From the NCBI GenBank assembly GCA_027487385.1, contig JAIYDS010000085.1, forward strand, positions 1 to 59,899: a stretch of 59,899 bases of DNA, given 5' to 3'. The position numbers and the translations under genes are program-made. Source of the DNA: Acetobacteraceae bacterium. GTDB taxonomy: Bacteria; Pseudomonadota; Alphaproteobacteria; Acetobacterales; Acetobacteraceae. The notes below the pieces were generated by a model. That model ran no database searches. It was given only the letters and a program-made list of their open reading frames with translations, and was not told the DNA's origin. How positions within the stretch are numbered: position 1 is the first letter of the stretch; every line of letters begins with the position of its first letter. Shown here in pieces: positions 36,243 to 54,504 of this stretch.

Positions 36243-36986
36243 TCAGCCGCCCGCCGGCGGCATGATCAAGGCGATGCCCGACATGCCCGGCAGGAGGTCC
36301 CGCTCCTGCCCCTCGATCCGGCCGAAGAGCTTCACCGTCTGGCTCACCGGATCAATCCGCGCGCCGAGCCGCTCGACCCGCACCGGATGCTCCCGCCCGG
36401 TCTCATCCAGCCGGACCGTGAAGCCGCCGCCAGGGCGCAGCCAGGCCAGCCAGCGCGAGGGGACCAGCAACTCCACCTCCAGCTCCCGGTGATCGAGGAT
36501 TTCGATCAGCGGCGCGCCCTCGGCGGTGAATTGATGGCGGGCGGCGTGCAGCTGCACGACACGCCCGGCGAAGGGTGCGGCGATGACGCAGCGCTCGACC
36601 GGGACGCGGGCGGCCACCACCTCGGCCTCCGCCGCCGCCGCCTCCGCCTGGGCGATGGCGACGTCGAGCCGGCTATTGGCGCCGCTGCGGTCCAGCCGCA
36701 GCGCGGATTGAGCCTGGGCCTGGGCGCGGTCCCTCAGGGCGGCGGCGCGTTGCAGCCGGGCGCGATGGCCGGCGCAGTCGAATTCGACCAGCACATCCCC
36801 CGCCTCGAAGAGATCCCCCTCGCGCCGGGGCAGCTGGGCGATGCGTCCCGCCACCTCGCCCGAAAGCTGGGACTGGTGGCGCGGAACCAGCTGGGCCCGC
36901 AGCTCCGGCTGCGGCTGCGCCCAGGCCGAAGAAAGCCAGGCGGCGGGGGCCAGCAGCAGCAGCCCCAGCAGAGCCGCGCGCCTCAC
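36243..36986 (-). CDS. Small periplasmic adaptor (membrane-fusion) protein
   Basis: A 247-aa HlyD/RND-type adaptor. A signal peptide ends near SSAWAQ. A split lipoyl/barrel-sandwich domain (SGEVAGRIAQLP and APFAGRVVQLHA) brackets an alanine-rich helical hairpin, and a beta-barrel domain follows. It is shorter than most adaptors. The start is GTG 36986, in a GTGA overlap with the stop of the TolC-type gene. It is the last gene of the export cassette and should bridge an inner-membrane component to the TolC channel in the periplasm. Confidence 0.87.
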   Translation of the reverse strand: MRRAALLGLLLLAPAAWLSSAWAQPQPELRAQLVPRHQSQLSGEVAGRIAQLPRREGDLFEAGDVLVEFDCAGHRARLQRAAALRDRAQAQAQSALRLDRSGANSRLDVAIAQAEAAAAEAEVVAARVPVERCVIAAPFAGRVVQLHAARHQFTAEGAPLIEILDHRELEVELLVPSRWLAWLRPGGGFTVRLDETGREHPVRVERLGARIDPVSQTVKLFGRIEGQERDLLPGMSGIALIMPPAGG

Positions 36987-38524
36987 GGCGCGCGCTCCGG
37001 CGCCACCGAGGCCACCACCTGCGGGGCGCTGGGCGGCAGGCTCGGCCCCTCCGCCCGCACGCGCCGGATTTCGGCGGCGAGCGTCTGAATGTCGAGCCCG
37101 GCCACCTCCTGCGGCAGCGGGTCCTGGCCGATGGTCGCATCCATGGTGGCGCGGGCCGTGCGCAGCTCGGCAAAGGTGCGGTGGCGCCGCAATTCGGAGA
37201 GCAGGGCCGAGGCGGTGTCCCGCACGCGATCCAGGTCGCTGCCGGCCTGATCGGCCTGGCGCTGGCCGGAGAGGCGGGCGATGCGCTGCTCCACCGCATC
37301 CTGCCGCACGGCGCGCTGGTGCTGCGCTTCCGCCCGGGCCAATTGCAGCGCGGCCACATGCACCTGGGCCAGCACCGCCATGGACAGGGCCTGGCGCCGC
37401 GTCTCGGACAATTCGCGCTGCGTCGCGTTCAGCTCCAGCGTCTGCGGCAGCGAGGCGAGGCGGACGAGGTCCAACGCCAGCCGCGCGCCGGCCTCGGCCC
37501 AGTTGTTGTAGAGCAGGAAGGAGTTGCTGTCGTAGTTCAACGAGCCGTTGAGCGTGATGCCGGGCAGCAGGCGCAGCAGCGCGCGGCGGGCTTCGAGGGC
37601 CACGATGCGGCCATCATAGGCGGCCTCGCGCAGCTCCGGCCGCTGGGTCAGCGCCAGATCCTCCAGCTGGGCGAGCGGCGCAAGCGGCGCATCGCGCACC
37701 ATCTCGGGCGTGGAGGGAAGCGTATAGGGGCTGCCCGGGGGCATCCCCATCAGCGCCGAAAGTCGCGCGCGGACGATGGCGAGGTCATCGGAGACGGTCT
37801 CCAGCTGGCGCAGGATTTCCAGCAGTTCGCGTTGGCTGCGCAGCGCCTCGGAGGGTTCGAGGGAGCGCGCGCGCTCCAGCCGCTCGATCGTGGCCAGTGC
37901 GCGGCGCGTCTGGGTGAGCGTCGTCTCCAGCCGCGGCTGGATGCGCTGCGCGGCGACCGCCTGCCAATAGGCGCCCTCCACCTCCTGCAGCAAATTGTGG
38001 ATGGTCTTGCGGCGACGCTCGGCCGCGATCAGCGCGCGGTCGGCCTGCTGCTGCGCCTGCATGTAGGAGGCGCCGAAATCCAGGATGTTCCAGGTGAAGC
38101 CCAGATCCGCGACGTTGCGGTTGCGATCGCTGCCGACAAAGGTGTCGTTCGAGACCTGGCCCGTGCTGCTGGAGAAGCTGCGCGTGGCGAGCTCCCGATC
38201 GCGCGTGACATAGCCGGCCGAGGCGGCGACCCGCGGCAGCATGTCGAAGGGCGCGAGGGCGAGCTGGCGGTTCTGCACCGCCTGCTCATGCGCGGCGAGC
38301 CGGGCATCCAGGTTGTAGCGCAGCGCGCGGGCGAAGGCCTCTTCGAGCGTCACCGGGCCCTGCACCGGCTCCTGCGCGGCGTAGAGCACGGCGCGGTCGG
38401 CCGCCACACGCGCGGCGGTCTCGGCCGCCGTGAAGGGGCGCGGCTGCACCGAGCAGGCGCTGGTGAGAAGGGCCGCACAGCCGGCGGCCACGAGGGGAAG
38501 TCTGGAAGCGGCGTTCTGTCGCAT
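36983..38524 (-). CDS. TolC-family outer-membrane efflux protein
   Basis: A 513-aa outer-membrane factor. The N-terminus is a signal peptide with a lipobox-like LTSAC, so it may be lipid-anchored as in OprM-type proteins. Two long helical repeats of the OEP family follow; one contains TLEEAFARALRYNLDARLAAHE, the typical start of the first repeat. The start is ATG 38524, 13 codons inside a longer open frame. It forms a trimeric channel across the outer membrane and periplasm. It lies 117 bases downstream of the M50-HlyD gene and overlaps the small adaptor gene by 4 bases, which places it in the adhesin export cassette. Confidence 0.9.
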   Translation of the reverse strand: MRQNAASRLPLVAAGCAALLTSACSVQPRPFTAAETAARVAADRAVLYAAQEPVQGPVTLEEAFARALRYNLDARLAAHEQAVQNRQLALAPFDMLPRVAASAGYVTRDRELATRSFSSSTGQVSNDTFVGSDRNRNVADLGFTWNILDFGASYMQAQQQADRALIAAERRRKTIHNLLQEVEGAYWQAVAAQRIQPRLETTLTQTRRALATIERLERARSLEPSEALRSQRELLEILRQLETVSDDLAIVRARLSALMGMPPGSPYTLPSTPEMVRDAPLAPLAQLEDLALTQRPELREAAYDGRIVALEARRALLRLLPGITLNGSLNYDSNSFLLYNNWAEAGARLALDLVRLASLPQTLELNATQRELSETRRQALSMAVLAQVHVAALQLARAEAQHQRAVRQDAVEQRIARLSGQRQADQAGSDLDRVRDTASALLSELRRHRTFAELRTARATMDATIGQDPLPQEVAGLDIQTLAAEIRRVRAEGPSLPPSAPQVVASVAPERAP

Positions 38525-38641
38525 GCAGCAGGGTCCTTTCTGGATGCCGGCCGCGCCGGCCATCCTGACCGACGCTTCAAAGGCAGACGGCCCCTCCTAG
38601 GCCCATGATGCTTAAAGTTCCGTTCACGCCGGCGTCTGGAC

Positions 38642-40786
38642 TCAAAATCCGCTTTCGCGCAGCAGCACGCCCAGCGCCTGCCGCCAGGCGCGCGCGGCGA
38701 AGCTCTCAGCCTCGGCCTGCAACAGCACGGCCCCGCGCATCACCTGGCGCGGCACCACCGGCTCCAGCGGGGCCAGGAGCACGCGATAGACCGGCAATTC
38801 CGGCACCGCCGCGCCGTTCGGGCCCGCCCGCGTCGCGATCGCGCCGCCATGCAGCGAGGCGAGCTCGGCATCGGGCAGCAGCCGGGCCGCCGCGCCATCC
38901 ACCGCCAGGATGCGCGCCGCCACGCGCGGCGCGCCCGGATCCTCCGGCACGAAGCTGGCGCGCTGGCCGGGGGCGACGCGGCGCAGCACCCCCTCCTCCA
39001 CCCAGGCCTCGATCACGGTGCTGCCAAGATCGGCCAGCGCGGCCAGGCGTTCCCCCGCGCGCACCCATTCGCCCACGGCCAGCGGCTCGGCCAGCTCGAC
39101 CACGGTGCCGGAAAAGGGCGCTTGCACCAGGAGGCGCCGCTGATCGGCCTGCAGCGCGTCCAGCTCCGCCCGGGCCGATTGCAGCTCCCGCCAGAGGATC
39201 TGCCCGCGCGCCACCCAGTCCCGCTCCTGCGAGAGGGCGCTGGCCTGCCAGGTCAGCGTCTCGACGCGCCGCGCCACCTGTCGCTGGCGGAATTCCAGAT
39301 CGGGTGCTTCCAGCCGCAGCACCGGCGCCCCCGCCTCCACCGCCGCGCCGGGGCTCACCGCGATCTCGGCCACACGGGCGGGGACCTGGGCGAAAAGCTC
39401 CGTGCGGCGTTCGGCCGCCATCAGGGCCGGCGCCTCGATGGTGCCGTGCCAGGGCAGGAAGGCGGCCAGCAGCAGCAGGGTCACAGCCCCGCCGGTGACG
39501 AGGGTGTGGCGATTGAGGCGCATGGCATGTCTCCGCCGTGTCCATTCCACGGCCTCGCGCCAGATCGGGCGCAGGATGAACCACCAGATCTCGATGGCGA
39601 ACAGCAAGAGGCCCAGGGCCTTGAAGAAGAGGTGGTAGACCAGCAGCGCGATGCCCAGGAACAGCACGAAGCGATAGGCCCAGGTGCACACCGCCCAGCC
39701 CAGCAGGATGCGGCGCATGCGCGGCGGCCAGGCCTCGGGCGCGGGTTCATCCAGGCCGAACAGCGCCTCGCGGATGCGCCAGCGCGCCAGCGCGAAGGCG
39801 CGGTCCTGGAGGTTCGGCACGTCCAGCGTGTCCGACAGCAGGTAATAGCCGTCGAAGCGCAGGAAGGGGCTGAGATTGACCAGCAGGGTCAGCACCCAGG
39901 TCGTCGTCGCCCAGGTGAAGGCGACGCTGCGCAAGGGCCCCTCGGGCAGGAAGCTCCAGGCCAGCAGCGCCCAGCAGGCCAGCGCCAGCTCGGCCGCGAT
40001 GCCCGCCGCGCCCACCGCCATGCGCTGCCGCCGGTCGCACAGCCGCCAGGCCTCGCTCGTGTCGGTGTAGGGCATGGGGTAGAGCAGCATGAAGGCGATT
40101 CCCATGCTGGGCACGCGGCAGCCGAAGCGCTTCGCGGTCAGCCCATGGCCCAGCTCATGCAGGGCCTTGGCCAGCACGAGCGAGAGCAGGCCCAGCACCG
40201 CCCCTTCCAGCGAGAAGAAATGCAGGAAGGAGGCGCCGAAGGAATCCCATTGCCGGAGCGCGAGAAAGAGCCCTGCCCCGCCCGCCGCCAGCGTCAGCCC
40301 CAGGAACCAGCCGGTGAAGACGAAGCCCAGCGGCCCCAGCAGCGCGGTGAGCGCGCGGTCCGGGCGCAGCAGCGGCAGGCGGAAGAAGAGGTAGTTCTTC
40401 ACCAGCCACCAGGCCCAATGCGGCCGGGCGGCGGCGCGCTGGCGCGCCAGCCGGTCCAGCGCGGCCGGCCCGCTCGCCCGCAGCAGCTGCGCACCGGCCA
40501 GGAAGCGGGCGAAATCCTCCACCTCCTCGGGGCTCGGTGCCAGCATGGTCTCCAGGGCGATGCGCTCGGCGATGGCCGCCGGCACGCCCATCTCCCAGCG
40601 CGCCAGGATCTCGAATTCGAGCCAGCCCAGCCGGAAGAAGCGGCCGCTGGCCGGGTCATGCAGCGTCCAGCTCGGCGCGCCATCGGGGCCGCGCGGCCCG
40701 GGCTGCAAGGCCAGCTCCTCGCGCAGCGGCGCGAGCCGAGGGGCCAAATGGGGCGCCGGCTGCGCCGCGCTCAGAACCCCAGCCAT
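38642..40786 (-). CDS. PqqD-like/M50 site-2 protease/HlyD adaptor fusion
   Basis: A 714-aa inner-membrane protein starting at ATG 40786, inside the end of the upstream gene (16-base overlap); the longer open frame is a shadow. Residues about 35-100 resemble a PqqD-like winged-helix peptide-binding domain (LHDPASGRFFRLG). A polytopic membrane domain follows with the zinc-protease motif HELGH at 210-214 and FDGYYLLSD near 305, as in M50 site-2 proteases. Residues about 440-714 carry an HlyD-type lipoyl/barrel adaptor with a helical hairpin (SARAELDALQADQRRLLVQAPFSG in outline). Fusion of a membrane protease with an adaptor suggests that it processes or gates a substrate during export. The likely substrate is the giant protein encoded first in the cassette. 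Confidence 0.87.
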   Translation of the reverse strand: MAGVLSAAQPAPHLAPRLAPLREELALQPGPRGPDGAPSWTLHDPASGRFFRLGWLEFEILARWEMGVPAAIAERIALETMLAPSPEEVEDFARFLAGAQLLRASGPAALDRLARQRAAARPHWAWWLVKNYLFFRLPLLRPDRALTALLGPLGFVFTGWFLGLTLAAGGAGLFLALRQWDSFGASFLHFFSLEGAVLGLLSLVLAKALHELGHGLTAKRFGCRVPSMGIAFMLLYPMPYTDTSEAWRLCDRRQRMAVGAAGIAAELALACWALLAWSFLPEGPLRSVAFTWATTTWVLTLLVNLSPFLRFDGYYLLSDTLDVPNLQDRAFALARWRIREALFGLDEPAPEAWPPRMRRILLGWAVCTWAYRFVLFLGIALLVYHLFFKALGLLLFAIEIWWFILRPIWREAVEWTRRRHAMRLNRHTLVTGGAVTLLLLAAFLPWHGTIEAPALMAAERRTELFAQVPARVAEIAVSPGAAVEAGAPVLRLEAPDLEFRQRQVARRVETLTWQASALSQERDWVARGQILWRELQSARAELDALQADQRRLLVQAPFSGTVVELAEPLAVGEWVRAGERLAALADLGSTVIEAWVEEGVLRRVAPGQRASFVPEDPGAPRVAARILAVDGAAARLLPDAELASLHGGAIATRAGPNGAAVPELPVYRVLLAPLEPVVPRQVMRGAVLLQAEAESFAARAWRQALGVLLRESGF

Positions 40787-42087
40787 CGCCGCAACGCCGA
40801 AAGCGGGCGGCGGAAGATGTGATAGGCCAGCCGCACCTCCTGCCCATGCAGCTTGGCCGTGCCCTTCAGCCCGATGCGCAGCGGCGCCGCATCGGGGGCG
40901 AAGGCGGCGCGCAGGCGGAAGGCCAGCACGCCATCGGGCCCCGGCTGCGCGCGATAGGCGGCGAAGGCGAGCTCGGCCGGCACCGGCGCCTCGGGATTCA
41001 CGTTGAGGAACATGCGCACCTCCGCCCCCGGCTCCAGCGCGATGGCATCGGCGACCGGCAGGCGGATTTCCAGCGCCGTCCGCCCCGGATCGGCGATCTG
41101 CATGATGCGCTCGCCGATCACGACCGGCCGGCCCAGCCATTCATGCGCGTCGTCGAAGACGGCGATGCCGGGCTGCGTCGCGCGGATTTCGATGCGCGCC
41201 AATTGCTCGTGCAGGAAGGCGACCTCGGCGCGCTGCTGCTCCAGCCGGCCTTGCAGCATGGGGATGGAGGCGCGGGCGCGCGGATCGGCCACCGCCCCCT
41301 GCATCGCCTGGCGCAGCTCGGCCTCGGCCACCTCGGCGGCGCGGCGGGCCACTTCCAGCTGGGTCTGCAAGCGGCGCGGATCGAGCGTCAGCAGCAATTG
41401 CCCGGCCACCACCGCCTCGTTGGGGCGGACATGCAGCGCCTCCACCACGCCATCCAGCGGCGCGCGCACCACCATGGGATCGAGCGCGATGACCTCGGCC
41501 GGGGCCAGCACGGAATCCCGCACCGGCAGCAGGCCGATGCCCACCACCGCCGCCAGGGCCAGGGCGGCCAGCAGCGGCCGGCGTGGCGCCCGGCGCGCGC
41601 GGCGCGGTTGCAGCGCCGCCAGCGCATGGCCATAGCCGCTGGCCAGCAGATCAAGCAGGCGCCGCTCGCCCTCGGTCCAGGGCTCTTCGCGGGCCAGCGC
41701 CAGGGCGCCAAGAAACCGGCCGCGATGCGCGAGCGGCAGCCAGAGCAGCTGCGCCGGCAGCCAATCGCCCCAGCCCTCCGCCTTGGGCGCATTCGCCGCG
41801 GTCAGCATCTGCGTCTCGGCCGCACCCGGGGCGGCCGCGATGCGCCCGAGCAAGCCGGTGAGCCAGGCGGCGAAAGGCGCGTCGCGCTCCGGCTGGGCCA
41901 GGCCGGACAAGGCCGCAAGCCGCCCCGGCGCCAGCCACAGCGCCGCCTGCCGATAGGCGACGATGCCATGGGTGTCGTTCACCATGAGGAAGCCGAGGGC
42001 GGCCGCGTCCTCGGCCTCCCGCGCCCGCCGCTCCAGCTGCAGCAGCGCGGTCAGGCGCAGCAGCTGGCGGTCCTGGGGGAGGCTCAC
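40771..42087 (-). CDS. GAF domain-HlyD adaptor protein
   Basis: A 438-aa inner-membrane adaptor. Residues about 30-155 resemble a GAF sensor domain (DTHGIVAYRQAALWL, LLWLPLAHRGRFLGALAL). One transmembrane helix lies at about 168-188 (LLAALALAAVVGIGLLP), so the GAF part should be cytoplasmic. Residues 195-438 are an HlyD-type adaptor with paired lipoyl halves (VRAPLDGVVEALHV, IRATQPGIAVFDD), a helical hairpin and a beta-barrel. The start is GTG 42087, in a GTGA overlap with the adhesin gene. A cytoplasmic sensor domain on an export adaptor could let a small ligand control assembly; that is inference. Confidence 0.85.
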   Translation of the reverse strand: MSLPQDRQLLRLTALLQLERRAREAEDAAALGFLMVNDTHGIVAYRQAALWLAPGRLAALSGLAQPERDAPFAAWLTGLLGRIAAAPGAAETQMLTAANAPKAEGWGDWLPAQLLWLPLAHRGRFLGALALAREEPWTEGERRLLDLLASGYGHALAALQPRRARRAPRRPLLAALALAAVVGIGLLPVRDSVLAPAEVIALDPMVVRAPLDGVVEALHVRPNEAVVAGQLLLTLDPRRLQTQLEVARRAAEVAEAELRQAMQGAVADPRARASIPMLQGRLEQQRAEVAFLHEQLARIEIRATQPGIAVFDDAHEWLGRPVVIGERIMQIADPGRTALEIRLPVADAIALEPGAEVRMFLNVNPEAPVPAELAFAAYRAQPGPDGVLAFRLRAAFAPDAAPLRIGLKGTAKLHGQEVRLAYHIFRRPLSALRRWLGF

Positions 42088-45000
42088 GCCGCCTCATCCC
42101 CCCGGATGAGGTCCTCCATGAGCCGGAGAAGCTCCGCATGCTGGGCCTCGGCGCCCGTTGTGCGCAGCGCCTGGGTCAGGCCCGGCTGCGGCTGGGGCGA
42201 TGGCTCCGTCAGGTCCAGCCGCTCGGCCAGGGCTTCGAGCCCGGTGAGCGGGGCATCGGCCAGCCAGGTCTCGGCCGGGGCGGCGGCGCGCGGCGCGGGC
42301 GCCGGGGCCGTCGGCACGGCTTCCACCGGCCGCGCATCGCCGCCGACCTGGATCCGCATCACGGTCGTCGCCTCGCGCCCCTGGGCGTCGCGGGCGGTGA
42401 AGCTCACCACCAGGGTCTGGTTCACGCCGGGGGGCGGCTGCACCACCAGCGTGCCATTGCTGGCGTCGAACCGCGCCCAGGCCGGCAGGGGCTGGCCATT
42501 GGCCTGCCGCGCCGAGACCGCGACCGGCATGCCCGGATCGCTGTGGCTGAAGCTGCCCGCGGGCAAGGTAATGACGTTGCTGGTGCCGGCGCTGGCGCTG
42601 AAGCTGCCGAGATCCGGCGCGGCCCGGAGGCCCGTCGGGCCAAAGCCGCCATCGCTGACGCCCCGCTGGACGAAGGCGCCGGTGTTGGCGGGCTCCCCCC
42701 CGCGTGGTGCGGTTGGCGCGCCGCTTGTCTGGCCGCCGCTGCCGAAGCCGCCGCCAAAGCCCCCACCAGAGCCACTCCCGAGACCGCCCCCGAGACCGCC
42801 ATTGCCGGAGAAGCCGCCGGAGGACGCGCCCTCACCCCCGCGCATGGCCTGAGTCACAGGCGTGATCGGCGCTGGTGCTGGCGGCGGGGCCGGCGGCGGC
42901 GCGGGCGGCGGGGCCGGCGGGGCGGGTGCTGGCGCCGGCGGCGGGCTTGGCTGCACGGTCAGCGCGAAGCTGGTGCTGGCCGTGGCCCCGGAGAGGTCCC
43001 TCGCTTCCAGCGTCACCGTATAATTGCCCGGCCGCAGCGCCCCGCTGGCGGCCGAGAGCGTCAACACCTCGCCGCTTCGGGTCAGGGCCAGCCCGGCCGG
43101 CCCGCTGAGCGAGAAGGCCAGGACATCACCGCCCGGCTGATCCGCATCGGCGAAGGTCGAGACCGGCAGGTTCAGCCGGAAGGGCAGGTCTGCGCGGGTG
43201 GATTGGCTCGCTGGCAGGCTGCCCGTCACCACCGGCGCGTCATTCACCGAAGCCACCGCCAGCGCCACCTCCGGCGCGGCCACCGGTGCGGCACCATCGG
43301 TCACGCTGAGCACGAAGCGGGTGGTGACGCTGCTGCCCGGCAGGGCCTGGTCGGCGGTGGGGCGGAAGGAGAGCAGCCGCAGCGCCGCCGTCACCTGCTC
43401 GGCCGAGCCGCTGATCCGGTAGCTGCCGGCCGAAAGCCGCTCGACCCCGGCGGCGGAGAGCGAGGCCTCGGTGAAACGGCCCGTCGCCTCGCCGGTGGTC
43501 CCGGCGGCGTCGCGGATCAGCAGGGTGACGGTGAGCACATCGCCAGGCAGGTCCACATCGCCCAGCTGGATGGCGTTGAAGGGCCGGCTTTCCGCCGTGT
43601 CATTGCCGGATTGGGCGGTGACCAGGCCGCCCACCACCGGCGCGTCATTGCGCGGGCTGACGGCCAGGCTGAGCACCGCGGTGGTGCCCGAGAGCGCGCC
43701 GCTGCCGCCCGCCTGCTGGGCGCCCGCATTCTGGCCCGCGCTGCGATCCCAGGCGCGCAGGGTGAGGCTCGCCGTCTCCCCATTGCGGGCATCGGGCAGG
43801 TAGCGCAGCTGGGCATCGGCCGCGAGCAGGCGCGGCGTGGCGGCGGAGACTGCGCCGAGTGCCGTCCAGCTCGCCCCGCCATCCTGTGAGACCTGCCAGT
43901 TGCCATTGCCCGTGGCGCCCGAGATGGCCGCGCCGGAGAGCGCGCCCGCATCCACATCGCTGGCGCCCAAGGCGGCCAGGATGCTGGCGAGGCTGGTGCC
44001 CGCGGAGGCCGCATCCTCATGCGTGCCGGTCAGCGCCAGGCTGCCGGCGCCCAGCACGGGCGCGTCATTCACCTCGGTGACGCTGAGGCTGGCCGTGGCC
44101 GCACCGAGCGAGAAGGCTTCGGTACCGCCCTGGGCCGCCGTGTCGCCGAGCCCGCCCGCGCTGCCCACCGTGCCATCCCAGGCGCGGAAGCCGAGGCTGG
44201 CCGTCTCGCCGCGCTGCGCGTCCGGCTGGTAGCGCAGCTGCGCATCCGGCCCGAGCAGCCGCGCCGCGCCGCCCGAGACGCTGCCCAGCGCGGCCCAATT
44301 CGCGCCGCCATCGGTCGAGACCTGCCAGGTGCCGCGGCCGCTGGCGGCGGTGATGGCAATGCCGAGCACCGTGCTGCTGTCCAGATCCGCGCCGCCGGCC
44401 TGGGTCAGCAGGGAGGCCACGGTGAAGGGGGTGGCGGTGCTGTCCTCCGAGGTGCCGGCCAATGTCACGCTGGCGCCCGAGGTGAGGGTGGGCGCGTCAT
44501 TCACCGCGGTGACGACCAGGCTCGCTCCGGCGCTGGCGCTGGAGAAGGCGCTGGCGCCGCCGGAAGTGGTGGTGTCGCCCGTGCCGCCGGCGCTGCCCGT
44601 GGTCTGGTCCCAGCCGCGGAAGGTGAGCGTCGCCGTCTCGGCATTGGCGTCGTCCGGGATGTAGCGCAGCTCCGCATCGGGGCCGAGCAGCCGGGCCGAG
44701 GCCGCCGAGACCGCGCCGAGCGCCGACCAGTTGCTGCCCCCATCGGTCGAGACCTGCCATTCGCCGCGCCCCGTGGCGCCGGTGACGGCCAGCCCCGAAA
44801 GCGCGCCGCTGTCCACATCGGCGAAGCCCGCCCCGGTGAGCAGCGCCGCGACGGAGGTGGCGCCGGAGGTGGTGTCCTCATCCGTGCCGGTCAGGGTGAC
44901 ATTGGCGCCATTCGTCACGGTGGGCGCGTCATTGGCATTGGCCACGGTGACCTGGCGCGTGACGCCGACGACGCTGGTCAGCCCGCCGGAATCCGTGACG

Positions 45001-48000
45001 CGGAATTCCACCACGCGGTCCTGCTGGCCCGTGCCGGTGGCCGGGTTCTCGCTGGTGCTGGCGAAGGTGACGCTGCGCAGCGCCTGCTCATAGGTCGCGC
45101 GGGTGGCGGTGCCGCTCAGCGTCAGCACGCCGGTCCCGGAATTGTAGCTGCCGGTGATGCCGCCCTGGTCCGTGAAGCCCAGCACATCGCCCGCCGCGCG
45201 GTCCGTGATGGTGACGCTGGCGCCGCTGAGATTGGGGCTGTCGGCATCGGCGATGGAAAGCCCGGGCGCGATGGCGCTGGCCGGGCCATCCTCGGCATAG
45301 CTCGCGCTGCCGCCGCCCGGGGTGATCACGGGGCGTTCGGCCACGGTGATGCTGAAGCTCTGGTTCGTCAGCGGGCTGGCCCCGTCCTCGCCGCCATCCG
45401 CCAGGGTGAAGGTGAAGCCATCCGAGGTGCCAGGGGCGTCGTCATGCAGGTATTTCACCTGCCCCGCCGCGAGGTCGGCCTGGGTGAAGCTCTGGCCATG
45501 GGCCAGCGCCTCGCCCGCATCCACCATGTTGTCGCTGTCAGCGTCCAGGAAGAGGGTGCCCCGGGTGGGGGCCGTGTCCAGCGTATAGGTCAGCCCCGTG
45601 CCGCCATCATCCGGGTCGCCCTCAGTCAGCAGGGCGGTGGTGATGGTCAGCAGGCCACCCGTCTCGGTCTGCCCGCCCGTGTTGGTGGCGAGGCTCGGGG
45701 CGTCATTCACCGGAATGAGGCTGAGGCTGCCGGTCACCACCGCGTTCTGGGCCGTGCCGCCCGTGCGCCCGCCATCGGCCAGGGTAAGGGTGATGTCGCG
45801 CGTGGTCGCGGTGCCGCCCGTCGTCGGATCATCCGAGGTGCTGGCGAAGCGCAGCTGCCCGATCAGCGCCTGCACCGCCGCATGGGTGGCATCCACGCCG
45901 GAGAGGCTGACCACGAGCGCCGCCGCCTGCCCGCCCGAGACCGTGCCGATGGCCTGGCCGTTGAAGGCAAGGTTGCCACCCGCGAGGGTGATGCCGTTGC
46001 CATCGGCGATGGAGAGCACATCCCCCGTGCGATAGGCGCCCAGCGCCACGCTCAGGCTGCCGCCATCCAGGTTCGGCGCATCCACCGCCGTCAGCACCGG
46101 GGCGCTGAACAGCGCGATGGGTGCTGCGCCCTCGGTCCAGCTGCTGGAGGTGACGGCGCCGGTCAGCGCCTCGGCATCATTGGCGGCGGTCAGGGTGAGC
46201 GTGCCGGTCAGGCTGTTGCTGTCCAGCGCGCCGCCGCCCGTATTGCCGCCATCCCGGAAGGTGGCGGTGATGGCGCGGCTGGCGGCGGTGCCGCCCGCCG
46301 TCGGGTCATCGCCGCCGTAGAAATTGTAGAGGATGTTGGCCATCACCGTGTTCACGGCCGCGGCATTCGCATCGCCGTTGAAGGTGATGACCAGCGCCGC
46401 GCCGAAGCCGCCCGAGACGGTGGCCACCTGCGTTCCGCTCAGGCTGACCGTGCCCTGGACGCTGTCATAGCTCAGGGCGCCCTGGCTCGCCGGAAGGGTG
46501 ATGAGGTCACCGCCCTGATAGGCATCGAAGGCCACGGTCAGCGTCGCCCCGGCGAAGCCCGCGGGAAGGTCGGGATCGGTGACGCTGGGCGAGGTGAAGA
46601 GCGCGACGGAGGTGCCGGCAAAGCCGCTGGAGCCGGCGAGGGTCGCGCCCTCGCTCCAGCTCGCCCCCAGGGTGCCGGCGAGGGCCGGCGCGTCATTCAC
46701 CGCCGTGAGCGCCACGGTGGAGAGCAGCGCGAGGGTCGCCGTGTTCACATCGCCGCCGCCATTCGGGCCGGTGTCGCGCAGCGCGGTGATGGTCACGGGC
46801 CGCGTCGCGGCGCCCAGGGAATCGCCGCCATGGCGATAGGCGAGGCCGGCCACCAGGGCCTGCAACTCCGCGGCGTTCGAGCCGGCCGCGCGGTTGATGG
46901 TGACCGAGGCGGTGGATCCCGAGAGGGCGACATCCACGCTCAGCCCATCGCCGACATCCAGCGCCGAGACCGCCTGCAGCGCGACCTCGACGCCATTGAC
47001 GCGCAGATACTCGGCCGCGCCGTCATTCACCTGGGCGATGGTGACCACCAGCCGGTCGAAGGATTGCCCGCCCTCCACCGTGCTGGCCGTGGGGTTGGTG
47101 AAGAGCAGGACGGGCACGCCGCCCTCGGTGAAGCCAGGATTGGCCGCGGTCGCCGTCAGGGTGGGCGGGTCATTGACGTTCGTCACCGTGACCGTCACCG
47201 CCTGGCTGGTGGCGTTGCCCGCCACATCGGCGGCGCGCACCACGACGGTGTAGGTGTTGTCGGCCCCGTCATCGCCGGGCGCCTCGAAATCGGGCGCGGT
47301 GGCGAAGCGCAGGTCGCTGCCGTTCAGGGCAAAGCTCCCGGCGTCAATGCCGCCCTGGATGACATAGTCCACGCCGTCACTGGCCGAGACCGTCATCACC
47401 GCCGTGCTGTTTTCCGCCACGTTCGTGCTCGCGCTGACGGCCCAGCCGGGGCCGGTGCGGTCAATCGTCACGAGGCGCGCGGCGCTGTCGGCGCCTTCAT
47501 TCCCCGCCGCGTCCACCGCGCGCAGCGTGAAGCTGTAGCTGCCATCGGCAAGGCCCGAGACATCCACGCCCGAGAACAGGTAATGGCCCGAGCCATTGGT
47601 CGTCATCGTGCCGGCCAGGGTGCCGTCACGATACAGCCGCACCTCCGTGTTGGCGGTGGTGGTGCCGAGGAAGTTGAGGCTGTTGGCGTTGGTGATGTCG
47701 TCGCTGTTGCTGGACCCGCTGTCGCTGGCGGCGGCGAGGTCGGGCGCGCCGGGCGCCGCGGGCGCGGTGCGGTCGATCGTGACATCCAGCGCCGTGCCTG
47801 CGCTGCCCAGATTCCCGGCCAGGTCCATTTGGCGCAGGGTGAAGGCATAGGTGCCATCGGCGAGTGCGGAGGTGTCCAGACCCGCGAAGCTCCAGGCGCC
47901 ATTCGCATCGGCCGTCGTGCTGGTGACGAGGTTGCCGTCGCGGAACAGCCGCAGCGTCTCATTCGCGCCGATCGCGGGCCCGCTGAAGGTAAAGGAGGTC

Positions 48001-50273
48001 GCGCTGGTCACATTGTCGCCGTCGCTCGTGCCCGTGTCGGAGGAGGGCAGCAGATCGGGCGGCCCGCCGGCGGCGGGCGCCGTGCGGTCAATGGTGATGA
48101 GCCGCGCGGTGCCGGAGACGCTCTCATTGCCCGCCACGTCGAGCTGCCGGACGCTGAAGGAATAGCTGGCGTCGCTGAGGGCCGCGACATCGACGTCGGC
48201 GAAGGTGAAATCGCCATTCCCATCCGCCGTGGCCGTCGCCATGAGGCTGGTGGCGCGATAGAGCCGCACGGTCGCGCCCGCATCGGCGCCGCCGCCGGTG
48301 AAGGTCAGGCTGGTGGCGTTGGTCAGGTCGTCACTGTCGCTGGCGCCGCTGTCCGAGGCGGCGGCGAGGTCCGGCTGGCCCAATGCGGCGGGCGGCGAGT
48401 TGTCCAGCGTGTAGCTGGTCTGGTTCGCGCCGCTCGGCGTCAGGTTCGTCAGGGCGTTGCCGGCGGCATCGGTGATGTCCTGCCCGCCGGCGAAGCCGAG
48501 GGTGACGGGGCCATCCACCTCGGCCAGGTTCCCGCCGGAGGCGGTGACGTCGAAGGCGTTGCCTCCGGCCGAGGTGACGCCGAGGGTGCCCGTTGTCCCG
48601 GTCAGGCTGAAATCGGCGGCATCCACGCCGGTGACGGCCCCGTTGAAGCCGACGCGCCAGGTCACGCTGTTCGCATTGGTGACCTCATTCGCCGGCGTCT
48701 GCCGGGTGATGGAGGTGACGGTGGGCGCGGTGCGGTCGATCGTGATGTTGAGCGCCGTGCTGTCCGTGCTCTCCGCCGAGCCGTTGAACTGCCGGGTGGT
48801 GAAGCTGTAGCTGCCGTCCCCGAGGCCGGAGACGTCCAGATTGTTGAAGCTGTAGTTGCCGGTGCCATCGGCCGTGGTGCTCGCCACCTGCGTGGCGCCG
48901 CGATAGAGGCGCACCGTGCCATTCGGATCCGCGCCCGTACCGGTGAAGCTCAGGCTGGTGGCGTTGGTGAGGTTGTCCGTGCTGCTGCTGCCGCTGTCGG
49001 AGCCGGCGGCGAGATCAGGGGCGGAAGGCGCGTTGGGCGCGGCGGGTGCCGGGTCGGGGTCCCCGGGCAGCAGGAAATTCGCGGCGGTGATGGTGCCGGT
49101 GACGTTGATGAACGCCGCGAAGGTGAAGAAGACACTGCCGCTGGTGTAGCCGACGGCGATGGTCGGCGTGCCGCCGGAGGAGGTGATGCTGTTGCCGCTC
49201 TGGAACAGGAAGGGGCCGTTGGCCGAGAAGCTGGTGTAGCGCGTGTCGGTGCCGAAATAATCCGAATTGCCGATGTCGTAGATGTCCGTCGTGAACTGCG
49301 CGAATTGGGTCGATATGTCGGTGCCGCGCAGGTCAATGAAATCCTCGGCCGCGTTGAACCCGCTGATGACCGCGATGTTGAACAGCTCGGTGGAGTTGGC
49401 GAAGTAATGCCCGCCATGACTCTGCGCCGTGGTGGGAAAGCGCGCCAGATCCACCGTGCCATCGGTGAAGGTGACATTGGTGGTGTCCGTCAGGTTCACC
49501 GTGTTGTTGCCGTTCAGCAGCCCGCCAAAGGCGGCGATCTCCAGCGTGACCGTCTCCACCTGGCCGTGCCGCTGCTCCAGCGTCCAGTCTCCGCCGCGCG
49601 CCGCGGGGCCCGTGTCGTTGGTGGAGGCCGCGACATCCGCGCCCGTCGCGGCGCTCAGGGCTGTGAGGAAATCCTGCCCCTCCCCGCCCGCGACGCGGCA
49701 GCCATAGAGCAGCAGGTCGCCCTCCGCCCCCAGCGCGGTGCCCAGCGCCGCGAGATCGGCGGCGCGCGCCTCCACCCCGGCGGCATCGAGGTTGAGCGAG
49801 CCGAGCTGAACCCGCCCCTCGCCGCCATGGCTCAGCACATGCAGGGCCGAGATGTTGTTGCGGCCCTCCAGCGCTTCCACCAGTTGGGTCAGCCCATCGC
49901 GCGCGGGGTCCAGCAGGATGATCTCGGCCTGGGGGGGTGCGGCGTCGCGCAGCGCCTCCCAGCCTTGCACGGCGGTGTCGATCGCGACGATCTCGACGGG
50001 TGTGGCGGCGGAGGGACCGGTGGCCTGCGTGGCGGCCTGGGCGGTGCCGGCCGTGCCCTGCACCAGGGCGGCGACCAGCCCGGCATCGCCGCCTGCCGGC
50101 GGGGCCATGGGATCGGCCATCTGATCGGCCTGCGCCTCCGCCGTGGCGGCGCCGGCGGCGTCGAACATGAAGCGCTGCTCCAGCGCCAAGGCCAGGCGAC
50201 GGGGGGCGAAGCGCCCCGCGCCCGCACGCGCGAATTCACCGCGATTGCGCTGGTGGTCTGTCCATCCTGACAT
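42084..50273 (-). CDS. Giant DUF4347 / Ig-like / cadherin-repeat surface protein
   Basis: A 2729-aa repeat protein, probably exported to the cell surface. Near residue 30 it has LALALEQRFMFDAAGA, a motif seen at the start of many giant DUF4347 adhesins. DUF4347 spans about residues 93-250, with a conserved His149 (LSHGGEG) and Cys192 (YGCRVAG). A beta-rich segment, five Ig-like units ending in TIDRTAP-type sequences, cadherin-like domains and three 143-residue units (DNA 43640-44930) follow. Next come a Pro-rich and then a Gly-rich linker (DNA 42955-42745), a dystroglycan-like Ig domain and a short helical tail. There is no ordinary signal peptide. The start is ATG 50273. It heads the cassette with two HlyD adaptors, an M50 protease and TolC, so adhesion or biofilm formation after dedicated export is the best inference. 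Confidence 0.9.
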   Translation of the reverse strand: MSGWTDHQRNRGEFARAGAGRFAPRRLALALEQRFMFDAAGAATAEAQADQMADPMAPPAGGDAGLVAALVQGTAGTAQAATQATGPSAATPVEIVAIDTAVQGWEALRDAAPPQAEIILLDPARDGLTQLVEALEGRNNISALHVLSHGGEGRVQLGSLNLDAAGVEARAADLAALGTALGAEGDLLLYGCRVAGGEGQDFLTALSAATGADVAASTNDTGPAARGGDWTLEQRHGQVETVTLEIAAFGGLLNGNNTVNLTDTTNVTFTDGTVDLARFPTTAQSHGGHYFANSTELFNIAVISGFNAAEDFIDLRGTDISTQFAQFTTDIYDIGNSDYFGTDTRYTSFSANGPFLFQSGNSITSSGGTPTIAVGYTSGSVFFTFAAFINVTGTITAANFLLPGDPDPAPAAPNAPSAPDLAAGSDSGSSSTDNLTNATSLSFTGTGADPNGTVRLYRGATQVASTTADGTGNYSFNNLDVSGLGDGSYSFTTRQFNGSAESTDSTALNITIDRTAPTVTSITRQTPANEVTNANSVTWRVGFNGAVTGVDAADFSLTGTTGTLGVTSAGGNAFDVTASGGNLAEVDGPVTLGFAGGQDITDAAGNALTNLTPSGANQTSYTLDNSPPAALGQPDLAAASDSGASDSDDLTNATSLTFTGGGADAGATVRLYRATSLMATATADGNGDFTFADVDVAALSDASYSFSVRQLDVAGNESVSGTARLITIDRTAPAAGGPPDLLPSSDTGTSDGDNVTSATSFTFSGPAIGANETLRLFRDGNLVTSTTADANGAWSFAGLDTSALADGTYAFTLRQMDLAGNLGSAGTALDVTIDRTAPAAPGAPDLAAASDSGSSNSDDITNANSLNFLGTTTANTEVRLYRDGTLAGTMTTNGSGHYLFSGVDVSGLADGSYSFTLRAVDAAGNEGADSAARLVTIDRTGPGWAVSASTNVAENSTAVMTVSASDGVDYVIQGGIDAGSFALNGSDLRFATAPDFEAPGDDGADNTYTVVVRAADVAGNATSQAVTVTVTNVNDPPTLTATAANPGFTEGGVPVLLFTNPTASTVEGGQSFDRLVVTIAQVNDGAAEYLRVNGVEVALQAVSALDVGDGLSVDVALSGSTASVTINRAAGSNAAELQALVAGLAYRHGGDSLGAATRPVTITALRDTGPNGGGDVNTATLALLSTVALTAVNDAPALAGTLGASWSEGATLAGSSGFAGTSVALFTSPSVTDPDLPAGFAGATLTVAFDAYQGGDLITLPASQGALSYDSVQGTVSLSGTQVATVSGGFGAALVITFNGDANAAAVNTVMANILYNFYGGDDPTAGGTAASRAITATFRDGGNTGGGALDSNSLTGTLTLTAANDAEALTGAVTSSSWTEGAAPIALFSAPVLTAVDAPNLDGGSLSVALGAYRTGDVLSIADGNGITLAGGNLAFNGQAIGTVSGGQAAALVVSLSGVDATHAAVQALIGQLRFASTSDDPTTGGTATTRDITLTLADGGRTGGTAQNAVVTGSLSLIPVNDAPSLATNTGGQTETGGLLTITTALLTEGDPDDGGTGLTYTLDTAPTRGTLFLDADSDNMVDAGEALAHGQSFTQADLAAGQVKYLHDDAPGTSDGFTFTLADGGEDGASPLTNQSFSITVAERPVITPGGGSASYAEDGPASAIAPGLSIADADSPNLSGASVTITDRAAGDVLGFTDQGGITGSYNSGTGVLTLSGTATRATYEQALRSVTFASTSENPATGTGQQDRVVEFRVTDSGGLTSVVGVTRQVTVANANDAPTVTNGANVTLTGTDEDTTSGATSVAALLTGAGFADVDSGALSGLAVTGATGRGEWQVSTDGGSNWSALGAVSAASARLLGPDAELRYIPDDANAETATLTFRGWDQTTGSAGGTGDTTTSGGASAFSSASAGASLVVTAVNDAPTLTSGASVTLAGTSEDSTATPFTVASLLTQAGGADLDSSTVLGIAITAASGRGTWQVSTDGGANWAALGSVSGGAARLLGPDAQLRYQPDAQRGETASLGFRAWDGTVGSAGGLGDTAAQGGTEAFSLGAATASLSVTEVNDAPVLGAGSLALTGTHEDAASAGTSLASILAALGASDVDAGALSGAAISGATGNGNWQVSQDGGASWTALGAVSAATPRLLAADAQLRYLPDARNGETASLTLRAWDRSAGQNAGAQQAGGSGALSGTTAVLSLAVSPRNDAPVVGGLVTAQSGNDTAESRPFNAIQLGDVDLPGDVLTVTLLIRDAAGTTGEATGRFTEASLSAAGVERLSAGSYRISGSAEQVTAALRLLSFRPTADQALPGSSVTTRFVLSVTDGAAPVAAPEVALAVASVNDAPVVTGSLPASQSTRADLPFRLNLPVSTFADADQPGGDVLAFSLSGPAGLALTRSGEVLTLSAASGALRPGNYTVTLEARDLSGATASTSFALTVQPSPPPAPAPAPPAPPPAPPPAPPPAPAPITPVTQAMRGGEGASSGGFSGNGGLGGGLGSGSGGGFGGGFGSGGQTSGAPTAPRGGEPANTGAFVQRGVSDGGFGPTGLRAAPDLGSFSASAGTSNVITLPAGSFSHSDPGMPVAVSARQANGQPLPAWARFDASNGTLVVQPPPGVNQTLVVSFTARDAQGREATTVMRIQVGGDARPVEAVPTAPAPAPRAAAPAETWLADAPLTGLEALAERLDLTEPSPQPQPGLTQALRTTGAEAQHAELLRLMEDLIRGDEAA
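43640..44930 (-). repeat. Three tandem 143/144-codon repeats in the giant protein
   Basis: Anchored on GAGACCTGCCA, the units occur at 43888, 44317 and 44749, giving periods of 429 and 432 bases. Each encodes a unit with a WQVS motif, followed by LGxVS, RLLGPDAxLRY and a Gly/Ser-rich end. Boundaries are approximate. Confidence 0.75.
47457..49035 (-). repeat. Array of five Ig-like repeats in the giant protein
   Basis: Five Ig-like units of about 100 codons each end in TIDRTAP or a variant. Four share the opening PDLAAASDSG-type sequence; the fourth from the left (about 48390-48725) is a different Big-like unit. Boundaries are approximate. Confidence 0.7.
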
Positions 50274-52672: not shown

Positions 52673-53743
52673 ATGGTCACGCTGTCCCGTCGTTCCGCGC
52701 TCGCCGCGGGCACCGCCATCCTGGCCACGCCCAACGTGGTCCGCGCCCAGGCCGCGCTGCGCCTGACGCTTCCCTGGCTTGCCCAGGGCTCGACCGCCTA
52801 TGCCTTCATCGCCCGCGAGATGGGCGCCTTCTCGCGCCGTGGCCTGAATGTGGAAGTGACGCGCGGCTTCGGCTCCGTCGCCGCCGCCCAGGCGCTGGCC
52901 CAGGGCCAGTTCGACTACGCCATCATCGGCGCCGGCCCGATGATCCTCGCCGCCGCGCGTGAGCTGCCGGTCGTCGGCATGGCGACCGTGAATTACGACA
53001 TGACCATGGGCATCGCGCTGCGCGCCGACAGCCCGATCCGCACCGCGAAGGACCTGGAGGGCAAGCGCATCGGCGCCGTGCCGACCAGTGCGGAATTCCC
53101 CTTCTGGCCCGCCTTCGCCCGCCGCGCCGGCATCAACCTCCAGACCGTCACCATCCAGCAGATGGACAACCGCGTGCTGGAGCGCAGCCTGATTGACCGT
53201 CAGGTGGATGCCATCACCGCCATCGGCTCCTCCACCATCCCGGTCATGCAGGCGCAGAATGCGGCGCACCGCTTCATCCCCTATTCCTCGGCGGGGCTGA
53301 ACTTCTACGCCAACGTGATCTGCACCCGCCCCGAGGTGCTGCAGAACCGCGCGGCCCAGGCCGAGGCGATCACGGACGCGCTGCTGGAAGCCGCCGCCCT
53401 GCAGCTGCGCGAACCGGAGCGCGCGCTCGACATGTTCATCCGCCAGGTGCCCGAGATCGGCATCACCTCGGGCGGGCGTGAGAATGCGCGCCTTTCCCAG
53501 GGGCTGATGCAGGCCACCATGCTGGCGCCCGAGGCCATCCAGAACGGCCTGGGCTGGACCGACATGGCCAAGTGGAACGCGATGACGGACCTCGTCATGG
53601 AATTCGGCGCGCCGGCCGATGCCAAGCGCCCCAGCACCGAGGCCATCATTTCCAACCGCTTCGCCGGCCGCATCAAGCTGACCGAAGCCGAGTGGGCCGC
53701 GCAGCGCACCCGCCTCGCCCCCTTCGGTGCCATGCTGGGATGA
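52673..53743 (+). CDS. ABC transporter substrate-binding protein (NMT1/TauA/SsuA-like)
   Basis: A 356-aa periplasmic binding protein. The N-terminus has a twin-arginine-like SRRSALAAGTAIL and a cleavage region near VVRAQAAL. LPWLAQGSTAYAFIAREMG, the NMT1-type ligand loop, is followed by GFGSVAAAQALAQGQFDYAI. The family binds sulfonates, nitrate, pyrimidine precursors or other N-containing organics. GGAGG lies 9 bases before ATG 52673. Its stop overlaps the ATPase start as ATGA. It is the first gene of an operon that also encodes an amidohydrolase and a molybdenum hydroxylase. Confidence 0.9.
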   Translation: MVTLSRRSALAAGTAILATPNVVRAQAALRLTLPWLAQGSTAYAFIAREMGAFSRRGLNVEVTRGFGSVAAAQALAQGQFDYAIIGAGPMILAAARELPVVGMATVNYDMTMGIALRADSPIRTAKDLEGKRIGAVPTSAEFPFWPAFARRAGINLQTVTIQQMDNRVLERSLIDRQVDAITAIGSSTIPVMQAQNAAHRFIPYSSAGLNFYANVICTRPEVLQNRAAQAEAITDALLEAAALQLREPERALDMFIRQVPEIGITSGGRENARLSQGLMQATMLAPEAIQNGLGWTDMAKWNAMTDLVMEFGAPADAKRPSTEAIISNRFAGRIKLTEAEWAAQRTRLAPFGAMLG

Positions 53744-54504
53744 TTTCCCTTCGCGGCGTTCGCAAGACCTATGCCTCGCCGGCCGGGCCCATCGAGGCCG
53801 TGGCCGGCGTCTCCGTGGACATCGCCGAGGGGGAGTTCGTCTCCATCCTCGGCCCCTCGGGCTGCGGCAAATCCACCCTGCTGATGATGCTCGCGGGGCT
53901 GGAAGCCATCACCGCGGGCAGCATCACCATCGGCGGCCAGCCCATGATCGGGCCGCGCCGCGATGCGGGCCTGGTCTTTCAGGACGCCACGCTCCTGCCC
54001 TGGCTTTCGGCACGCGACAACGTGCTCTTCCCTATCAAGATGATGCGCCTGCCGCGCGAGAAATACGTGGCCCGCGCGGAAGAGCTGCTACACTCCGTGG
54101 GCCTCGGCGCCTTCATGGACAAGCGGCCGCGCGAACTCTCCGGCGGCATGCGGCAGCGCGTGGCGCTCTGCCGTTCGCTGATCCATACGCCCTCCATCAT
54201 GCTGATGGATGAGCCCTTCTCCGCGCTCGACGCCATCACGCGTGACGAGATGGCGCTGGTGCTGCTCGACCTCTGGTCCCGCCACCGCAAGACCGGGATC
54301 TTCATCACCCACTCGATCCGCGAGGCGGTGCTGCTCTCCGACCGCGTGCTGGTGATGACCAAGCGGCCTGCCGTCGTCGTCGCCGATGTACCGATTCCCT
54401 TCGCGCGCCCCCGCGATGAGAGCGTGCAGGACAGCCCCGAATTCATCGCCATCGTGGCCAAGCTGCGCGGCATGATCGAGCACAGCATCAAGGATGCGGC
54501 ATGA
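53740..54504 (+). CDS. ABC transporter ATP-binding protein
   Basis: A 254-aa ATPase of the NitT/TauT importer type. Walker A GPSGCGKST is at residues 38-46, the Q-loop at VFQDATLLPW, the signature LSGGMRQR at 133-140, Walker B IMLMDEP at 153-159 and the H-loop in FITHSIREA. The start ATG 53740 overlaps the previous stop, and its stop overlaps the permease start, both as ATGA. It powers uptake of the ligand captured by the protein at 52673. Confidence 0.95.
   Translation: MISLRGVRKTYASPAGPIEAVAGVSVDIAEGEFVSILGPSGCGKSTLLMMLAGLEAITAGSITIGGQPMIGPRRDAGLVFQDATLLPWLSARDNVLFPIKMMRLPREKYVARAEELLHSVGLGAFMDKRPRELSGGMRQRVALCRSLIHTPSIMLMDEPFSALDAITRDEMALVLLDLWSRHRKTGIFITHSIREAVLLSDRVLVMTKRPAVVVADVPIPFARPRDESVQDSPEFIAIVAKLRGMIEHSIKDAA

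Follow-up and report, generated by a model that had tools for sequence, protein, structure and literature searches.

Giant adhesins are exported by type I secretion, of which HlyBD-TolC, LapBCE and SiiCDF are examples, and in RiPP pathways leader peptides are bound by PqqD-like domains. An earlier paper calls the DUF4347 domain uncharacterised (PMC8262886), and another takes PA0256/Tce1 (9QPE), on the strength of structural similarity, for a putative cysteine protease (PMC13323088). In two further papers, a DUF4347 protein of Burkholderia thailandensis is among those raised in stationary phase (PMC12322963) and a LEPR-XLL protein of 8,000 residues is mentioned for Vibrio (PMC10868602).

We use 'the window' for the whole stretch analysed here, that is, 59,899 nucleotides of contig JAIYDS010000085.1 from an Acetobacteraceae bacterium (GCA_027487385.1, a draft record listed as 88.75% complete and 6.7% contaminated). 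Five linked genes, all on the minus strand, encode a giant protein, an adaptor with a GAF-like part (GAF-HlyD), a PqqD-like/M50/HlyD fusion (M50-HlyD), a TolC-type protein and a small periplasmic adaptor (Table 1). The coordinates bear out the linkage and the three overlapping junctions that a first-pass annotation had claimed (4 nt between giant and GAF-HlyD, about 16 nt between GAF-HlyD and M50-HlyD, and 4 nt between the TolC-type gene and the small adaptor); M50-HlyD and the TolC-type gene are separated by a 78-nt gap. The frame of M50-HlyD opens at 41140, yet similarity to its relatives begins near the ATG at 40786. That the set has no ABC ATPase, as had also been claimed, agrees with the Pfam and NCBIfam searches, which found none among the five genes. 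An ABC ATPase encoded 3.3 kb beyond the giant (53572-54504, plus strand) was considered as a partner and rejected, being an importer by context because an NMT1-type binding protein adjoins it.

Table 1. Features of the export cassette in the window (positions are those of the window).
Feature	Position	Strand	Details
Small periplasmic adaptor	36243-36986	minus	Sec-type signal by eye and hydropathy
TolC-type outer-membrane protein	36983-38563	minus	OEP 3e-21 (Pfam)
PqqD-like/M50/HlyD fusion	38642 to about 40786	minus	714 aa
Periplasmic HlyD-type part of fusion	38705-39448	minus	MacA, ZneB, EmrA relatives; model
FDG motif within NxxPxxxFDGYY	39848-39856	minus	F, D, G, Y invariant in 18 aligned sequences
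HELGH zinc motif	40145-40159	minus	H, E, G, H invariant in 18 aligned sequences
PqqD-like winged-helix domain	40493-40723	minus	profile comparison and model topology
GAF-HlyD adaptor	40771-42087	minus	GAF-like part, a single hydrophobic stretch and a periplasmic adaptor; topology judged by eye
Giant cargo protein (probable)	42084-50273	minus	2729 aa; DUF4347 and Ig-like/cadherin repeats between an N-terminal and a C-terminal tag
C-terminal tag region, PGLTQALR...	42087-42185	minus	last 33 aa of giant; assigned by eye
DUF4347 domain, putative cysteine protease with His/Cys pair	49548-49991	minus	alignment, solved relative
N-terminal tag LEQRFMFDAA	50154-50183	minus	giant residues 31-40

The cassette has much in common with type I secretion, namely a TolC-type protein, HlyD-type adaptors, a giant Ig-like/cadherin cargo with no evident Sec-type signal and, in many cargos, a C-terminal tag (a C-terminal signal being a type I trait). 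It departs from it in that the set contains no ABC ATPase, the inner-membrane part is the PqqD/M50/HlyD fusion, the adaptors are three and the cargo bears an N-terminal, leader-type tag. Judged from its sequences, the set would act like a type I system yet lacks the defining feature of one, an ABC exporter. We regard it as a variant of tripartite export that is apparently undescribed, as no description of the gene set was recognised in the open-access literature.

Other described systems share single traits with the cassette. As in RND/MacAB tripartite efflux, the small adaptor scores above the RND_mfp cut-off and the adaptor part of the fusion resembles MacA, ZneB and EmrA, whereas no RND, MFS or MacB pump is present in the set. 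The combination of a PqqD-like domain and an M50 intramembrane protease recalls the RiPP M50 proteases (daptide, epipeptide YydH/LiaK), but here the protease is fused to an adaptor, the cargo counts thousands of residues and the equivalog cut-offs are not reached. The short N-terminal motif of the cargo is that of the LEPR-XLL giants (NF012209), with the difference that the branch of the window reads FDAA or FDGA-type after LExR, whereas the cargos of a sister branch (see below) read LLxA. Like accessory Sec (SecA2), this sister branch encodes a SecA-like ATPase (SecA_DEAD, PP_bind and P-loop); unlike it, the loci examined of the window's branch yielded none and the sister ATPases do not reach the SecA and SecA2 cut-offs. 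Tce1/PA0256 of Pseudomonas aeruginosa (9QPE) belongs to the same domain family as the DUF4347 of the giant, with conserved His and Cys, but Tce1 is a 310-aa type VI effector, whereas in the giant DUF4347 forms the N-terminal part.

Peptidase_M50 matches the fusion protein over the Pfam cut-off (5e-9), both motifs of the M50 peptidases (HExxH and NxxPxxxxDG) are present in 18 of 18 near-full-length M50-HlyD sequences (alignment A1, chosen by us), and the zinc ligands in HExxH and FDG, the latter presumably supplying the third, are invariant in all of them. By profile comparison and model topology, the N-terminal domain is PqqD-like. The PqqD model of Pfam gave no match in the window protein and matched one of the 18 relatives at E 0.13; when compared (hhalign) with a profile of 30 PqqD domains from related genomes, the N-terminal 110 columns aligned over 62 of 67 columns (probability 90, E 1.7e-6) and the whole protein at a probability of 54.7 (E 1.2e-4), whereas five other segments scored E 0.16 or worse. 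In the AlphaFold2 model (mean pLDDT 85.9, pTM 0.65) this region is predicted to form three strands (28-31, 42-46, 51-55) and then three helices (57-64, 71-81, 88-100), and is followed by mostly long helices up to residue 445 and by the adaptor part. Pfam PqqD passes its own cut-off in both sister-branch M50 proteins scanned. By sequence, the solved protein nearest to the M50 part is 3b4r, and those nearest to the adaptor part are adaptors such as MacA, ZneB, EmrA and 8dck, a member of the MFP family; the best NCBIfam match of the protein, daptide protease, stays at 153.6 bits under a cut-off of 300. The carboxyl end reads SGF in 26 of 79 M50-HlyD proteins of the 80 loci introduced below.

HlyD_3 (Pfam) matches three proteins of the set. 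The GAF domain of GAF-HlyD is weak in the window (7e-4, under the Pfam cut-off) and over the cut-off in the one sister-branch counterpart scanned. The small adaptor passes TIGR01730 RND_mfp (107.3 bits, cut-off 94.9) and stays far under the T1SS HlyD model (29.5 bits, cut-off 208.65), and the TolC-type protein, which bears a lipobox-like LTSAC near its N-terminus (by eye), is under the cut-off of TIGR01844 with 52.8 bits; a membrane-fusion protein and a TolC-type protein are hence both present by family, at scores that do not reach the cut-offs of TIGR01843 and TIGR01844. At their carboxyl ends, the GAF-HlyD proteins of the 80 loci (75 counted) recurrently have short tails such as LGW or LGL.

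Of 385 genomes sampled from the class, 24 encode M50-HlyD (E better than 1e-40) and are hereafter called the cassette genomes; at E 1e-10 there were 28, from which G001, G107, G246 and G274 were dropped (short matches, 28-36% identity), and in several of the 24 the gene is partial or interrupted at contig ends. Across the genome collection at least 562 stretches encode a relative, and the record labels of the best 80 include Pseudomonadota, Nitrospirota and Desulfobacterota. Among these 80, 71 of the 75 loci with enough flank have GAF-HlyD on the strand of M50-HlyD and upstream of it, all three partners of M50-HlyD are present in some arrangement in 52/68, and the order TolC, small adaptor, GAF-HlyD, M50-HlyD is kept in 47/68. 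The window order (giant, GAF-HlyD, M50-HlyD, TolC, small adaptor) is thus a variant, and the gene set, which the first-pass annotation had proposed to look for in other genomes, recurs and proves to be a genuine, conserved unit whose probable cargo is the giant, giants lying beside the set in many of the best 80 loci. Among ORFs of at least 80 aa in the best 80 loci there is no recurrent sixth gene (the largest extra families, by eye, are a PAS-domain-like protein in 14/80 and an ABC in 9/80). RND pumps are absent from the five genes and no pump recurs in these 80 loci, one pump-like ORF being recognised by eye in L085.

The cassette moves as a block and is plasmid-borne in enterobacteria. M50-HlyD is matched by 52 of 72,556 plasmids (23 over at least 80% of the protein), and the E. 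coli gene occurs in 24 of 5,426 complete E. coli genomes with at least 99% identity (22 over at least 80% of the gene), 21 of its 25 places being on plasmids. All six E. coli copies viewed have the order giant, TolC, small adaptor, GAF-HlyD, M50-HlyD and, as the next feature downstream, a transposase gene or remnant; three also have one upstream, and in the other three between 0 and fewer than 400 upstream bases were in view. The giant of E. coli H6 has 4,459 residues, with FALESRQLFDGAA near its start and DUF4347 at residues 77-224 (E 1.5e-45). Some copies look altered: the TOK-001 giant is marked with an internal stop and a missing C-terminus, and GAF-HlyD of the Citrobacter copy is annotated as two genes. 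A further copy lies on plasmid p2 of Azospirillum brasilense, a plant-associated laboratory host.

By Pfam, the giant of the window contains DUF4347 (7e-47), Big_13 (5 stretches), Cadherin_3 and He_PIG, the Ig-like/cadherin repeats being its sole adhesin features. Candidate cargos were picked as proteins encoded on the strand of M50-HlyD and low in Arg and Cys, a filter that missed tagged proteins such as those of L128 and L129. A common pattern, LExRxxFD(A/G)A, marks the N-termini of the cargos near their beginning, as early as residue 4 in the shortest, and is present in 29 of the 33 candidate N-termini in view and in none of 789 windows of 200 aa elsewhere in the same proteins. The four without it are, by eye, a signal-peptide protein (L072), a pump (L085), a receptor (L117) and an ORF that opens inside a giant (L035). 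On sequence grounds the tag LExRxxFDxA is related to the LEPR-XLL domain of NCBI: NF012209 matches 7 of 10 cargo N-termini scanned, three over the cut-off of 17 and four under it (three gave no match), the giant of the window being one that remains under (13.5 bits). At the other end, a C-terminal profile built on half of the candidate cargos, including the window's giant, and partly covering an Ig-like domain recovered the C-terminus in 20 of 31 held-out cargos with E no higher than 1e-3 and gave one further match at an internal site (L085), and a strict C-tag pattern occurs in 29 of 62 candidates versus once in 1,010 windows elsewhere. These shared tags are new here; the first-pass annotation had missed them, together with the link between PqqD and LEPR-XLL, the E. 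coli copies and a second system in the same genome. As to a classical signal peptide, the best 12-residue hydropathy mean in the N-terminal stretch of the giant is 0.70 versus 2.33 for the signal of the small adaptor, and the medians are 1.36 for cargo N-termini (n=31) versus 2.40 for small-adaptor signal peptides (n=52), with overlapping ranges (cargo maximum 2.12, small-adaptor minimum 1.69). In one Zoogloea cargo (L092:1803-9368) the N-terminus ahead of the LEQR tag is weakly like autotransporters (Ag43 model, E 0.0017).

Residues H75 and C118 of DUF4347 are invariant in 21 sequences (alignment A3); among the 37 cassette-genome domains of a less strict alignment, eight have another residue in place of the His. 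The solved relative 9qpe (chain G) is found at 3.4e-6; designed TIM barrels rank higher, without an individually passing stretch. Over its cut-off, DUF4347 is present in 34 of the 385 genomes, that is, 19/24 cassette genomes versus 15/361 others (Fisher p 9e-19, which overstates independence because the genomes are related by descent). In 18 of these 19 cassette genomes (the exception is G348) the N-tag is in the same ORF as DUF4347, and it was seen on the DUF4347 proteins of none of the 11 non-cassette genomes examined out of the 15 (G148, G186, G231 and G310, with weaker, partial matches, were left out). A loose DNA pattern for the N-tag hits 16/24 cassette versus 39/361 other genomes, and the strict reading LE[PQA]R.[MLI]FD 15/24 versus 3/361 (G164, G262, G309). 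These three were rejected as cargo sources where judged: the match in G262 and one of the two in G164 lie deep in other frames, and that of G309 falls in a 233-aa frame unlike a cargo by eye. Two loci appear broken: in G348 (L171, G348:C1, about 4.85 Mb) an N-tag ORF and, downstream of it, a DUF4347 ORF are separated by an opposite-strand 515-aa ORF, as if interrupted, and in G028 (L173, G028:C1, about 963 kb) a second N-tagged DUF4347 giant is split in two frames inside DUF4347.

The search for ABC ATPases near the cassette, another check proposed with the first-pass annotation, revealed no regular ABC gene. With one importer-type ABC as query and 40 loci (among the best 80) that have 9 kb on both sides, an ABC gene lay between -6.5 and +4 kb relative to the M50 start in a single locus (L062, past the M50 gene), and 8/40 had one at any place in the stretch. 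The genome of the window has 136 ABC_tran matches, among them two PrtD-type T1SS ABCs over the cut-off, and T1SS models pass their cut-offs in 18 of the 24 cassette genomes (LssB 6, PrtD 13, HlyB 6), so that an unlinked ABC partner may be at work in these. In the other six (G028, G300, G070, G109, G355, G193), G028 has full-length T1SS ABC matches under the cut-offs and G300 comes close with PrtD (503.5 bits, cut-off 510.15), and in the remaining four LssB attains at most 314 bits (cut-off 693), PrtD is absent at E 1e-95 and HlyB at E 1e-120, with at most 30-37 candidates per genome scored. G355, G070 and G109 are listed as 99-100% complete (G355 as 100%) and G193 as 64%; in G355 the TolC-type gene, both adaptors, M50-HlyD and the giant lie together. 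A requirement for an ABC exporter elsewhere in the genome had been named as what would overturn a set without an ATPase: these four genomes of 24 speak against it, yet, as general ABC exporters match in all 24 and the candidates scored were limited, they do so for dependence on the known T1SS classes only.

The second system in the window's own genome (G000) is located on contig C295 (about 18.7-35.2 kb; L221, L222). Its PqqD/M50/HlyD protein is 33% identical to that of the window and has HELGH and NxNPxxRxDG; a frame of 3,274 residues, with LEDRILLAAQ near its start and over the LEPR-XLL cut-off, ends about 2.2 kb upstream of the M50 gene on the same strand, and an HlyD gene lies beyond the M50 gene. 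In 327 genomes of the class the own genome alone holds an M50 protein of this type (E 1e-40). NF012209 matches 9 of the 385 genomes, five of them cassette genomes (G000, G050, G295, G344, G378); the matches in G056, G182 and G280 (antisense to the mapped ORF) and in G201 (a 32-aa frame) were taken as chance.

Eleven plasmid records have a stretch similar to the C295 protein, and the seven viewed revealed the sister arrangement. The fullest set, in Methylosinus, comprises a giant, DUF3467, an adaptor, PqqD-M50-HlyD, a SecA-like ATPase, a small adaptor and TolC; in the other records one or more of these genes are absent in view. Five of the seven loci show an upstream giant (one record begins beside the gene and one is unannotated there), and four of these five giants have a LEPR tag by NCBI label or our own reading (three are NCBI-labelled), the Alisedimentitalea giant having no LEPR at its annotated start. 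The SecA-like ATPases contain SecA_DEAD (9e-91 to 1e-103) and the SecA preprotein-binding and P-loop domains in 4/4 scanned, under the cut-offs of the SecA and SecA2 models; public annotation calls them SecA, DEAD/DEAH helicase or prepilin peptidase. Those of L271, L274, L275 and L276 (plasmids of Paracoccaceae, Roseobacteraceae and Methylosinus) measure 638-674 aa. A profile of the four scanned matches 6/7 sister loci, its sources included; the Thalassospira locus (L273) has no SecA-like ATPase, and its M50 protein is also without the NxNPxxxxDG pattern. The same profile found no SecA-like gene in the window, the best 80 loci, 19 more loci, 8 enterobacterial loci, 2 further plasmid loci or the two C295 stretches, many of the searched loci being short; in the loci examined, no dedicated SecA paralogue was thus found within the gene sets of the window's branch.

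Gene linkage, conservation, invariant catalytic residues, a PqqD-like domain, shared cargo tags, a set without ABC and a SecA-like ATPase in most of the sister sets viewed are facts at the level of sequence. From them we infer export, and hold it slightly more probable than not that the cassette forms a dedicated system, guided by tags, which exports giant repeat proteins and displays them at the surface. As to how it would work, the best reading seems to us, on balance and by analogy, a leader-guided export through a TolC conduit, in which SecA rather than an ABC pump would provide for the inner-membrane passage. The cargo, without a classical signal peptide, would present its N-terminal LEPR-type leader to the PqqD-like domain of the fusion. 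SecA would then drive the crossing of the inner membrane, by the dedicated SecA-like protein in the sister branch and, since such an ATPase belongs to the sister gene set, likely by the housekeeping SecA in the branch of the window. Because its zinc site is invariant, the M50 part may trim or release the leader or regulate passage; going by their families, the three HlyD-type proteins and the TolC-type protein would form a conduit across periplasm and outer membrane and GAF would give cytoplasmic control. DUF4347, as a putative cysteine protease behind the leader, may hold the protein at the surface or later free it. Of the two alternatives in the first-pass annotation, the host-powered one gains support, by analogy, from the SecA-like ATPase of the sister branch; for an ATP-independent system we found no direct evidence, and most sister loci viewed have an ATPase.

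Other explanations merit consideration. The cassette could be a type I-like system that borrows an unlinked housekeeping or T1SS ABC exporter, with M50 and GAF as regulators; the C-terminal tag of many cargos, a giant repeat architecture like that of T1SS adhesins, the 18 of 24 cassette genomes with LssB, PrtD or HlyB over the cut-off and the two PrtD types of the window's genome are what such a system would look like, and general ABC exporters could serve in any cassette genome. We nevertheless deem it unlikely, given that no ABC is in the set, that 6/24 genomes have none of these exporters over the cut-off (four of them, G355, G070, G109 and G193, nothing near it), that the small adaptor passes RND_mfp and is far under the T1SS HlyD model, and that 6/7 sister loci have a SecA-like ATPase. 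It is more doubtful that the giant crosses independently of Sec, through the M50 membrane domain, driven by proton-motive force or by folding outside. Going by protein families, the set has a single multi-helix inner-membrane protein, the M50 fusion, and in the loci examined of the window's branch no SecA-like ATPase was found, which would suit such a channel, but the ATPase in most sister loci viewed argues against it and we know of no precedent for an M50 channel.

A last explanation, to which we give the least credence of all, would detach the giant from the machinery, the other four genes exporting something else, such as a small molecule or a processed peptide, beside which the giant would be a mere neighbour. 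M50 relatives do process RiPP peptides (the best NCBIfam match is a daptide protease) and the small adaptor matches RND_mfp. Yet giants are beside the set in many of the best 80 loci and share tags at their ends, the N-tag is on DUF4347 proteins in cassette genomes and absent in the 11 others examined, and six E. coli copies keep all five genes side by side. That the cassette amounts to a separate type of secretion system, a leader-guided, SecA-powered and TolC-ended conduit built on PqqD-M50-HlyD for which LEPR-XLL and LExRxxFDxA are the export leaders, is suggested by the sequences as a tentative proposal, which falls somewhat short of probable.

If true, this would give a function to two orphan families at once, the LEPR-XLL leaders and the DUF4347 giants, and would join RiPP-type leader recognition to protein secretion. 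It would also point to a Sec-driven route for giant cargos, and suggest by which exit proteins of 2,000 to over 10,000 residues may leave the cell without a dedicated ABC exporter.
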